A model generated the notes under the pieces. That model saw only the letters and a program-made list of their open reading frames with translations, made no database searches and was not told the origin of the DNA. 51,667 nt of DNA from Anaerostipes hominis (ex Lee et al. 2021) (lineage in GTDB: Bacteria; Bacillota; Clostridia; Lachnospirales; Lachnospiraceae): NCBI RefSeq assembly GCF_002270485.1, contig NZ_NQOG01000020.1:1-51667 (forward strand), read 5' to 3'. The stretch's first letter is position 1. Every line of letters begins with the position of its first letter. This document shows positions 11,815 to 17,444 of the stretch, piece after piece. The position numbers and the translations under genes were made by a program.

Positions 11815-11839
11815 AAATATCATCTTGAAAGGAACAGAA

Positions 11840-12667
11840 ATGGATCTTATATTAATCTTAAAAACCGTTATTTTAGGAATTGTGGAGGGCATTACGGAGT
11901 GGCTTCCCATCAGCAGCACCGGTCACCTGATTTTAGTAGATGAGTTCATAAACTTAAATGTCTCGGCAGCATTTAAAGAGATGTTTGACGTGGTGATCCA
12001 GCTGGGCGCCATCATGGCAGTGGTCGTGCTCTATTTTCACAAGCTGAACCCGCTCTCGCCAAAAAAGAACCGGAAGCAGAAACATGAGACTATGGTACTC
12101 TGGTACAAAGTAATCTTTGCGGTCCTTCCGGCAGCCGTCATCGGCATACTGTTTGACGATGCCATTCATGACAGATTTTTTAATCCGGTGGTAGTTGCGG
12201 CTACCCTGATCATCTACGGTGTCTTATTTATCGTCATTGAAAATCATAACGAGAGAAGCCGGAGAAGAGGGATGGATTCTCTCTCGGGCCTTACATACCG
12301 GATGGCCTTTATCATAGGAGTGTTTCAGGTATTGTCTCTGATTCCGGGTACGTCCCGTTCCGGAGCTACCATTGTGGGCGGAATCCTGATCGGATGTTCC
12401 AGGACCGTGTCGGCAGAATTTTCGTTTTTCCTCGGAATACCGGTCATGTTCGGAGCCAGTCTTTTAAAAATCTTAAAATTCGGTCTTTCCTTTACCGGCA
12501 CAGAGCTTGTGGTGCTGGCCATAGGGATGATCGTTTCGTTCCTTGTATCCATTGTTTCGATTAAATTTTTGATGGGATACGTAAAACGGCATGATTTTAA
12601 GGCGTTTGGAGTGTACAGGATCATACTTGGTATCCTGGTCATCGGATATTTTATGTTTTTAAAATAG
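11840..12667 (+). CDS. uppP: undecaprenyl-diphosphate phosphatase
   Basis: UppP/BacA (275 aa) is an integral membrane enzyme that recycles undecaprenyl pyrophosphate to the monophosphate carrier for peptidoglycan synthesis; its activity affects bacitracin tolerance. The two active-site segments are present: [15 protein letters not shown] (16-30) with Glu16 and Glu20, and PGTSRSGAT (169-177) with Arg173. Several hydrophobic helices follow. ATG 11840 with AAAGGA upstream is preferred over the in-frame TTG at 11825, which lies within the RBS region. Confidence 0.95.
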
Positions 12668-12676
12668 GAGAATTAC

Positions 12677-13426
12677 ATGGAGAAAGAATTATTTTTAAAA
12701 GGGATGCAGGAGCTTTTAGAGGTCGCAAAGGCCGGGGGCGACAAGATCCGGAAGGAAGATATTTTATCGTATTTCGGAGGAATGAACATTACAGATGAGA
12801 TCGAGACCATGCTCTGCGACTATTTTGTGGAAGCTGGAGTGCAGGTGGAGGGGTATGAAAAAAGCCCGAAAAAGAATACGCAGAAAGAAGATACAGATCC
12901 GGGAGTGATCCGGTTTTATGAGGAGGAACTTGCAGAGCTGGGAGGCTCTGATCCCGAAAAAGTACGAGAATTCATTGTCCGGCTGGCAGACGGGGAAGAC
13001 GTCCAAAATGAACTGATCGAGAGTATGCTCGCCGATGTGGCGCTGGCTGCCAAGAATTACACGGGGCACGGTGTTTTGCTCGGAGATCTGATCCAGGAGG
13101 GCAATATGGGCCTTATAGAAGCTGTATTTGAACTTGGAGACAAAGAGCCGGAGGAAGCCGAGATATTTTTACGGGAAGCAGCGGAGTCGGCAATGAAGAA
13201 GGCCGTTTCCGAGCAGATGAATACGGACTCGGTGGGAGAACAGATGGCAAGGCAGGCCAACCGTCTGGACGAGGCAGCCAGATTTCTGGCAGAAAACCTT
13301 GGAAGAGAGGCAACTGCCAAAGAGCTTGCGGATCACCTTAAGATGACAGAAGAAGAAGTAAAGGAGATCATGAAGATGTCGCTTGATGCGATCTCTGTCG
13401 TTGAGACAGACATTACCCGGAAATAG
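12677..13426 (+). CDS. sigma-70-like protein lacking promoter-recognition regions
   Basis: The 249-residue protein looks like a reduced paralogue of the RpoD encoded 3 kb downstream. Residues 1-60 match RpoD region 1.1. Residues 118-150 match the core-binding region 2.1-2.2, including LLGDLIQEGNMGLIEAV against [17 protein letters not shown] in RpoD. Where RpoD has the aromatic DNA-melting segment [15 protein letters not shown], this protein has an acidic EPEEAEIFLREAAESAM. Residues 183-240 resemble region 3. Region 4 (-35 recognition) is missing, and the protein ends normally with TAG. It starts 10 nt after uppP with GGAG. It could bind core polymerase without reading promoters, but the function is not known. 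Confidence 0.8.
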   Translation: MEKELFLKGMQELLEVAKAGGDKIRKEDILSYFGGMNITDEIETMLCDYFVEAGVQVEGYEKSPKKNTQKEDTDPGVIRFYEEELAELGGSDPEKVREFIVRLADGEDVQNELIESMLADVALAAKNYTGHGVLLGDLIQEGNMGLIEAVFELGDKEPEEAEIFLREAAESAMKKAVSEQMNTDSVGEQMARQANRLDEAARFLAENLGREATAKELADHLKMTEEEVKEIMKMSLDAISVVETDITRK

Positions 13427-13468: not shown

Positions 13469-14476
13469 ATGAACATCAGAGAAAAGCAGGAACAGACAGA
13501 GCTTAAGCTGCTGAGTCCATATGCGACGCAGAGCAGCCGTTCAAAGGGGAGAGAAAAGCCTGAAGTGGAGTGCGAACTTCGGACCTGTTTCCAGAGGGAC
13601 AGGGACCGGATCGTCCACTGCAAGGCTTTTCGGCGTTTAAAGGACAAAACGCAGGTGTTTTTGTCTCCGAAAGGGGACCACTACCGGACGAGACTTACGC
13701 ACACCCTGGAGGTGGCGCAGAATGCCAGGACCATAGCCAGGGCGCTGAACTTAAATGAACTGCTGACGGAAGCTATTGCCCTGGGGCATGACCTGGGACA
13801 CACGCCGTTCGGCCATGCGGGGGAGAGGACGCTGAACGAATTAAATCCCGAAGGCTTCCGCCACAATCTTCAGAGCGTCAGGGTGGTAGAGTGTCTGGAA
13901 AAGGACGGAAGGGGGCTGAACCTCACATGGGAAGTCCGGGAGGGAATGAAAAATCATTCCACCCACAGCATTTCCTCCACTCTGGAAGGAAAGATCGTGC
14001 GTCTGGCCGACAAGACCGCCTACATCAACCACGATATCGACGATTCTATACGGGCAGGAGTCATGAGGGAATCAGACATTCCGGCTGAATATACGGATGT
14101 GCTCGGACATACGGTGAGGGAGAGAATCAACACGATCATCCGGGATATTGTAAAGCACAGCGAGAACCGGAGTGATATCCTGATGTCCGAGGAAGTGCAC
14201 AAGGCCATGTTTGGGCTCAGGAGATTTATGTTTGACCATGTGTACTTCAATCCTCAGACGAAAAAAGAAGAAAGAAAAGTGCACCACATCATTGAACCGC
14301 TGTTTGAATATTATGTCCGCCACACCGACCTGCTTCCTGCTTACTCTAAAGAGAGAATCGGGGTGACCGAGTCCAAAGAACAGGCTGCCTGTGACTATAT
14401 TGCGGGAATGACGGACCATTTTGCCATCGAGACATACAAAGAAATCTTCATTCCGAAGTTCTGGCTGGAAAAGTGA
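13469..14476 (+). CDS. dgt: deoxyguanosinetriphosphate triphosphohydrolase-like HD protein
   Basis: The protein (335 aa) belongs to the dGTPase-like HD phosphohydrolases, which split dNTPs into deoxynucleoside and triphosphate. The metal-binding HD residues are visible: His78 in LTHTLEV, His107-Asp108 in GHDLGH and His116 in PFGH, with the later Asp in YINHDIDD. It is the shorter type common in Firmicutes rather than the 500-residue E. coli Dgt. ATG follows AGGAAGAGG. The order dgt-dnaG-rpoD is conserved in many Clostridia. Confidence 0.9.
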   Translation: MNIREKQEQTELKLLSPYATQSSRSKGREKPEVECELRTCFQRDRDRIVHCKAFRRLKDKTQVFLSPKGDHYRTRLTHTLEVAQNARTIARALNLNELLTEAIALGHDLGHTPFGHAGERTLNELNPEGFRHNLQSVRVVECLEKDGRGLNLTWEVREGMKNHSTHSISSTLEGKIVRLADKTAYINHDIDDSIRAGVMRESDIPAEYTDVLGHTVRERINTIIRDIVKHSENRSDILMSEEVHKAMFGLRRFMFDHVYFNPQTKKEERKVHHIIEPLFEYYVRHTDLLPAYSKERIGVTESKEQAACDYIAGMTDHFAIETYKEIFIPKFWLEK

Positions 14477-16315: not shown

Positions 16316-16349
16316 GTTGGTTAAAATAGGTATGAGAGGAAGGAAATTA

Positions 16350-17444
16350 ATGGACGAAACAATGTTACAATTCAGCGAGAAGCTGGCAGGTTTAGTAGAA
16401 CTGGGGAAGAAAAATAAAAATTTTCTGGAGTATGCCCAGATCGAGACATATTTTAAAGATTTTAAGCTGACGTCGGATATGATGGAGGCAATTTTTGATT
16501 ACCTGGAACAAAACGGAGTCGATGTGCTTACGATTCCTGAGGGAGAGGACGACGAAGATCTGGAGATCAAGGAAGAGATCGAAGAAGAAGCGGACCTGAC
16601 GATCCCGGACGGAGTCAGCATCGAGGACCCGGTGCGCATGTATTTAAAGGAAATCGGAAAGGTACCTCTGCTGAGTGCGGATGAGGAGATCCGTCTGGCC
16701 CAGAGGATGGAGGAAGGCGACGAGGAAGCCAAGAAAAAACTTGCGGAAGCCAACCTGCGTCTCGTAGTCAGCATCGCCAAGCGCTATGTGGGACGGGGGA
16801 TGCTGTTTCTGGATCTGATCCAGGAGGGAAATCTGGGTCTTATTAAGGCAGTAGAAAAATTCGATTACAGGAAGGGTTATAAGTTCAGTACGTATGCCAC
16901 ATGGTGGATCCGCCAGGCCATCACCAGGGCCATTGCCGACCAGGCAAGGACAATCCGTATCCCTGTCCATATGGTGGAGACGATCAACAAGCTGATCCGT
17001 GTATCCAGACAGCTCCTGCAGGAACTCGGAAGAGAGCCGCTTCCGGAAGAGATCGCCGAGGAGATGGATATTCCGGTGGACCGTGTGCGGGAGATTTTAA
17101 AAATTTCCCAGGAACCGGTATCTTTAGAGACACCGATCGGAGAGGAAGAAGACAGCCACCTCGGAGACTTTATCCAGGATGACAATGTGCCGGTGCCGGC
17201 GGATGCGGCGGCATTTACGCTGCTGAAAGAACAGCTGAGCGAAGTGCTCGGAACATTGACGGAGAGAGAGCAGAAGGTGTTAAGGCTGCGCTTCGGACTG
17301 GATGACAGCCGTGCAAGGACATTGGAAGAGGTAGGAAAAGAGTTCAACGTCACCAGGGAGAGAATCCGCCAGATCGAGGCCAAGGCCTTGAGAAAGCTGA
17401 GACATCCGAGCCGCAGCAGAAAATTAAAAGACTATTTAGATTGA
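16350..17444 (+). CDS. rpoD: RNA polymerase primary sigma factor SigA/RpoD
   Basis: The housekeeping sigma factor (364 aa). Region 1.1 (about 1-60) and an acidic linker (64-84) precede region 1.2 (92-130). Region 2 includes [18 protein letters not shown] (154-171) and the DNA-melting and -10 contact segment [13 protein letters not shown] (177-189). Region 3 follows at about 200-260. Region 4 ends with [20 protein letters not shown] (334-353), the -35 helix-turn-helix. The frame extends upstream to 16317, but ATG 16350 has GAGAGGAAGG before it and gives the conserved start. It is coupled to dnaG, as in the classical macromolecular synthesis operon. Confidence 0.97.

Follow-up and report, generated by a model that had tools for sequence, protein, structure and literature searches.

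What does a sigma factor do once it has lost the parts that read a promoter? The question is raised by a frame in a 51,667-nucleotide contig of Anaerostipes hominis (called the window below), where a gene related to rpoD lies on the forward strand at 12677..13426. Its product, referred to here as the sigma-like protein (SLP), is made of regions 1.1, 2 and 3 of a sigma-70 factor without region 4, as judged from the frame, Pfam scans, BLASTP and the scores of its relatives. The usual picture of a sigma factor is that of an initiation factor, and the non-initiating sigma look-alikes that we know of either target anti-sigma factors, as PhyR does, or need a partner to initiate, as RsoA does. No published description of the SLP family was found among the open-licence full-text papers listed. 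The evidence below points to a sigma-70 paralogue that has turned into a putative non-initiating ligand of core polymerase.

The gene and its domains

The SLP frame is intact. It starts with ATG, codes for 249 amino acids and has its own AGGAG ribosome-binding site (12666..12670, +, read from the sequence), which overlaps the stop codon of the upstream neighbor uppP (11825..12667, +; real start probably the ATG at 11840). A gap of 42 bases separates it from dgt (13469..14476, +), with dnaG and rpoD next in line. The names uppP and dgt are those of an earlier note on this DNA, whose description of an intact frame on the same strand as both is accurate. The rpoD gene itself (16317..17444, +, starting at TTG 16317 or further in) codes for an intact sigma factor of the parent type. 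Seven promoter-like sites (6.6 expected) and 10 terminator-like sites (5.2 expected) were counted, and the idea of a promoter or terminator specific to SLP was dropped. Elsewhere in the genome, at C1:321434-322171, there is a second RpoD-type sigma factor of 340 amino acids, group 2-like, with its melting residues intact and region 4 present.

Residues 6-246 of SLP align with residues 9-264 of the window's RpoD, with 78 of 262 positions identical (30%, E 4e-23, BLASTP). The N-terminal domain (residues 3-58; 12683..12850, +) is 1.1-like according to BLASTP against RpoD, to two predicted models in which the order of helices and strands is the same, and to Pfam in relatives; at an E value of 0.01, Sigma70_r1_1 matches 26 of 52 members, and for the window SLP alone Pfam makes no region 1.1 call. 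Regions 2.1-2.2 (residues 105-150; 12989..13126, +) are placed by the alignment and by the fit of the model to 1sig, and they include the core-binding motif DLIQEGN, aligned without a change at residues 137-143 (13085..13105, +). Both RpoD alignments proposed earlier, to region 1.1 (residues 6-57) and to 2.1-2.2 (about 105-150), were thus recovered. The former regions 2.3-2.4 (residues 151-187; 13127..13237, +) have lost the DNA-melting and -10 residues and have reversed their charge, so the melting segment has indeed been substituted by unlike, acidic sequence. A single helix is predicted across 2.3-2.4-3.0 (residues 158-208; 13148..13300, +), where RpoD has RTIRIPVH.

Sigma region 3 follows at residues 193-241 (13253..13399, +) and is the best Pfam match of the protein (Sigma70_r3, PF04539, E 1e-13, over the cut-off). 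The match to Sigma70_r2, at 23.3 bits, falls just below the cut-off of 24, and homology to sigma-70 in regions 2 and 3 is present both by sequence and by fold. The sigma finger and region 4 are absent from SLP, and the weak region 4 match in Pfam (17.2 vs a cut-off of 24.1) only overlaps region 3. The earlier claim that the promoter-reading regions had gone is therefore right for 2.3-2.4 and for region 4, but it overlooked region 3. Other scans added little to this picture. NCBIfam gives generic sigma models only, none of the 25 matches listed reaching the cut-off, and the PADLOC hits on MzaA (E 1.5e-6) and PDC-S01 are weak and probably reflect sigma homology. No receiver domain family was seen in the window SLP or among the 18 Pfam families listed for 52 members.

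Distribution, descent and constraint

A frame was called SLP when it scored higher with a model of 52 SLPs than with a model of 27 RpoDs; the final set holds 78 SLPs, of which 52 trained the SLP model and 26 lay outside training. Searching with the single protein found SLP in 11 of 11 genomes of Anaerostipes, at 45-100% identity. With the profile of 52 members (A2), it was found in at least 41 of 60 Lachnospiraceae genera, a lower bound because the count does not reach frames scoring below E 1e-17 in strength; in one positive genus (G063, locus L108), the SLP is cut by the contig end inside region 2.3. No SLP was counted in 19 of the 60 genera, and the protein may therefore be dispensable in the family. 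When 47 genomes of the order were searched, SLP was found in none of the 42 from other families, where all matches at E 1e-25 or better are in frames of at least 361 residues and one genome has no match. The five Lachnospiraceae in that search comprise the genome studied here and G176, each with an SLP-like frame, G186 and G198, with none, and G209, with a match of 306 amino acids. SLP is apparently a coherent family confined to Lachnospiraceae. In named genomes 570 stretches were confirmed; of the best 80, eight score as SLP, and these eight records are named Anaerostipes, Lachnospiraceae, Merdimonas or Eubacterium sp. The plasmid search returned 149 records, all below 60% identity, and among the matches listed, three of eight are annotated rpoD. 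A phage origin was considered and rejected, as none of the best 80 of 430 confirmed viral stretches scores higher as SLP than as RpoD; the three among these 80 without a region 4 match score far higher as RpoD.

Relatives truncated in the same way, for which the earlier note suggested a search, do exist, and the truncation is shared by the SLPs of 68 genera. Pfam region 3 is found in 49 of 52 family members, the sequence past region 3 has a median of five residues in the 78 SLPs, and 76 of the 78 frames close with a stop codon while two run off the end of a contig. The longest tail found, 101 very acidic C-terminal residues, belongs to the SLP at L081:4705-5775 (G017). The 1.1-like domain is missing in 13 of the 78 (L047, L049, L056, L058, L062, L063, L071, L075, L106, and four others). 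Nine of these 13 form one clade, and the eight clade members whose context was examined all lie beside a LysR-like regulator and a helicase-like protein of 800 amino acids, names that come from reading the sequences rather than from a family scan.

A tree of 110 rows places all 78 SLPs, drawn from 68 genera, to one side of a single branch (SH-aLRT 99) that separates them from 31 RpoD-type sigmas. The branch is found again (SH-aLRT 100) in a tree without the 2.3-2.4 columns and six long rows (73 SLPs, 31 RpoD-type sigmas); both trees are quick, unrooted searches without bootstrap. The position of the SLPs on one side of a well-supported branch suggests an old split rather than a recent local duplication, and one old origin is the simplest reading. 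Among the loci examined, SLP lies near rpoD in Anaerostipes only, in 11 of 11 genomes. The local tandem duplication of the neighboring rpoD, which the earlier note had proposed as duplication followed by loss, was abandoned, given the single branch between SLP and RpoD and the absence of a true rpoD from the stretch fetched at any of 45 SLP loci from other genera.

The order uppP-SLP-dgt is kept in 11 of 11 Anaerostipes genomes but fails in other genera: at none of the 45 loci does uppP, dgt, dnaG, or a true rpoD lie beside SLP within the fetched stretch (about 5 kb on each side where the contig allowed). The contexts examined outside Anaerostipes vary by clade and have no common theme. Some SLPs lie by a membrane protein and an M16C-like peptidase, some by a LysR regulator and a helicase-like protein, some by ilvC and a mutY-like gene, and there are further arrangements; all these names come from our own reading of the sequences rather than from a family scan.

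Against the relatives G008 and G009, the dN/dS of SLP is 0.106 and 0.099 (Nei-Gojobori). The same comparisons give 0.014/0.036 for gmk, 0.016/0.055 for uppP, 0.048/0.049 for dgt, 0.028/0.034 for dnaG, 0.000/0.007 for rpoD, 0.102/0.089 for trmK, and 0.152/0.099 for nif3. SLP is thus constrained yet fast for its operon, like trmK and nif3. For the SLP pair L004-L005, dN over dS is 0.017/0.204, and in the remaining SLP pairs synonymous sites are at or near saturation, with dS above 1.3 or infinite. Relaxed selection was looked for and not seen, with dN/dS at about 0.1. For Anaerostipes this ratio contradicts decay, against which the earlier note had also argued, but the open frame on which that note relied is no evidence here, since an open frame was a condition for collecting an SLP. 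In one Anaerostipes clade of six members, dN is lowest in region 3 (0.100) and higher in 1.1 (0.193), 2.1-2.2 (0.222), and 2.3-2.4 (0.340).

Residues kept and lost, and the predicted fold

For the comparison of residues, the 78 SLPs were scored at the 80 columns within RpoD 94-262 that are conserved in 30 or all 31 RpoD rows. We take DLIQEGN to correspond to residues 403-409 of E. coli sigma70, with a role in core binding, and D403, Q406, E407, and N409 (E. coli sigma70 numbering) to be the contacts to the beta-prime clamp helices. Thirteen of the positions conserved in RpoD are assumed, from work on E. coli sigma70, to be DNA contacts; F427, T429, Y430, W433, W434, Q437, and T440 are presumably the residues of -10 melting and recognition. 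The four beta-prime contacts are kept at a mean of 92% and rank 2, 3, 4, and 16 of 80, while the 13 DNA contacts are kept at a mean of 9% and all 80 columns at a mean of 34%. The difference between the two sets of contacts has a Mann-Whitney p of 0.002, to be read in the light of the fact that the sets were named after the columns had been seen.

The core contacts have thus been selectively kept and the promoter-reading residues selectively lost, as the earlier note had supposed from the window alone. D403 is kept in 77 of 78 SLPs and E407 in 76. Both melting tryptophans, W433 and W434, are gone from all 78. Retention is also poor at T429 (1/78), T440 (1/78), R441 (1/78), P453 (0/78), H455 (5/78), E458 (7/78), and Q437 (8/78), one of the 78 rows (L108, G063) stopping at the contig end inside region 2.3, before W433 and the columns after it. 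Some positions do not follow the trend. Q406 has become glycine in 18 of 78 SLPs, which counts against a simple core-binding reading, and the DNA-contact positions F427 (22/78), R436 (21/78), and Y430 (12/78) are partly kept, which counts against a protein that binds core without initiating.

The net charge of 2.3-2.4 goes from a mean of +5.6 in 27 RpoDs (range 5 to 6) to a mean of -4.8 in 52 SLPs (range -9 to +4). All 31 RpoD rows have a proline at RpoD 180-225 and all 31 have the IRIP proline, and no SLP row has a proline at RpoD 198-212 (77 of the 78 rows have sequence there). The AlphaFold2 model of the window SLP, made with A2 (mean pLDDT 85.9, pTM 0.50), has one helix at residues 158-208 across 2.3-2.4-3.0, with the junction block 181-190 at pLDDT 74. 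A second SLP, from a Merdimonas record and 25% identical to the window protein (pLDDT 81.5, pTM 0.52), is also modeled with one helix, at 170-217, with block 191-200 at 76. The sigma-2 part of the SLP model fits known structures, with 1.6 A over 72 residues to 1sig (residues 109-180) and 2.1 A over 89 residues to 7xya, and all 50 Foldseek matches listed are sigma factors. Alignments that span sigma-2 and sigma-3 fit mostly at about 9-10 A (6.6 to over 20 A), and on the models the angle between the two domains would have changed. The fused helix, as predicted, would displace sigma-3 from its place in the holoenzyme, which argues against core binding.

Compared with RpoD/SigA, the group 1 sigma-70 factor, SLP has the same 1.1-2-3 domain order, detectable homology, the core-binding motif, and the sigma-2 fold. 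It differs in having few DNA-reading residues, no sigma finger or region 4, an acidic 2.3-2.4, and a predicted single helix across 2.3-2.4-3.0.

What the protein may do

The reading preferred here is that SLP is an old, Lachnospiraceae-specific paralogue of RpoD that binds core polymerase, does not initiate, and competes with RpoD; its chances of being right seem to us about even. The retained sigma-2 surface would grip the beta-prime clamp helices, and SLP would take the place of RpoD on the core. NusG-type factors are other ligands of these helices, and SLP may displace them as well. The protein keeps a 1.1-like domain and region 3 and has lost the extended -10 contacts besides the residues for -10 recognition and melting, and its acidic surface would hold or shield the DNA channel. 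The pool of polymerase competent for initiation would be lowered or retuned. From the residues kept we infer the binding to core, and a consequence for initiation would follow from it; we are less sure that SLP works by competing or holding and not by modulating elongation. DLIQEGN also helps to build the sigma-2 fold, which weighs against core binding as the reason for its retention. A fuller picture, in which a "blank" sigma sits on the clamp helices with its acidic surface facing DNA and 2.3-2.4/3.0 as one helix, and serves as a global brake, a parking factor, or an elongation-phase substitute for sigma, is offered tentatively, with the balance tilted against it.

One alternative, which we think unlikely, makes SLP a sigma mimic: by titrating an anti-sigma factor, or another ligand of sigma region 2, it would free RpoD or another sigma, much as PhyR frees EcfG in Alphaproteobacteria. 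The sigma-like domain of PhyR, the alphaproteobacterial sigma mimic, cannot initiate, as is predicted for SLP. In the published account PhyR is ECF-like, carries a receiver domain, titrates NepR, and has lost promoter-reading residues, as SLP has, but its core-contacting regions appear degenerate (PMC8103513), whereas those of SLP are among its best-kept parts. SLP is also unlike PhyR in being RpoD-like, in having kept the core motif, and in having no receiver domain in Pfam scans. The idea stays alive because residues within region 2.2, or close to it, are needed by CsfB, an anti-sigma factor (PMC4383634), and the region 2.2 surface where CsfB acts on SigG is kept in SLP. Against it, among 41 loci with an SLP cluster member, no neighbor is common to all contexts as a candidate cognate anti-sigma.

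It is similarly improbable, in our judgment, that SLP is mainly a protein-protein adaptor working through region 3 and the long helix, with the sigma-2 motif kept for folding. Region 3, rather than 2.1-2.2, is the slowest-evolving part in the Anaerostipes clade, so the main partner of SLP may sit elsewhere than on the clamp helices, and region 3 would have a conserved job that the plain loss of promoter regions does not explain. The single predicted helix across 2.3-2.4-3.0 fits such a role too, but the near-constant D403 and E407, which we assume to be core contacts, are hard to explain by folding alone.

Less probable again is a split sigma, with SLP as one of the subunits and region 4 in another protein. 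SigO-RsoA of Bacillus subtilis is the model for this, sigma-4 and sigma-2 being split over two proteins that initiate together (PMC8103513). RsoA, like SLP, is a separate sigma-2-bearing protein without region 4 (PMC8103513). The genome studied here has region 4 matches in short frames of 94, 123, 126, and 131 amino acids, so partners could exist. However, SLP has mostly lost the residues for melting and reading the -10 element, and no sigma-4 partner was found near it with an RpoD-based model; on the fetched loci, that region 4 model picks out only RpoD-type sigmas and the protein of L117 described below, a divergent region 4 being able to escape it. Decay of a functionless rpoD copy is scarcely credible as an account of SLP: the protein diverges much faster than RpoD and none was counted in 19 of the 60 genera, but its dN/dS near 0.1 within Anaerostipes resembles that of trmK and nif3, its truncation and residue loss are common to 68 genera, and it has its own ribosome site.

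The competitor reading has a possible counterpart in the delta subunit RpoE of Bacilli, which is acidic, binds core, and limits unproductive complexes. SLP is acidic as well, and the effect proposed for it is of the kind ascribed to delta. The HARE-HTH domain of delta has no match in SLP up to E 1 and none in the genome studied here. Replacement of delta by SLP was considered and set aside as uninformative, since HARE-HTH is absent from 59 of 60 Lachnospiraceae genomes, SLP present or not, and the one match is a 685-amino-acid frame barely at the cut-off. If the competitor reading is true, Lachnospiraceae, which rank among the most abundant families in the human gut, would set the amount of polymerase free to initiate in a new way, through a sigma derivative that is stable, lineage-wide, intact in its core grip and blind to promoters.

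Some other RpoD-like genes also depart from the usual form. Short ones at L045:4726-5643 (G091) and L066:5028-5867 (G168), of 305 and 279 amino acids, lie in a dgt-dnaG-rpoD operon and apparently lack region 1.1. Another, at L117:5077-6081 in G097, which belongs to the 19 genera with no counted SLP, codes for a 334-amino-acid protein that scores higher as RpoD than as SLP and groups with RpoDs on a long branch. Its melting segment is partly degenerate (still ...YALYWIRQ...) and its region 4 is kept, and it may represent an independent loss of this kind at an earlier stage.
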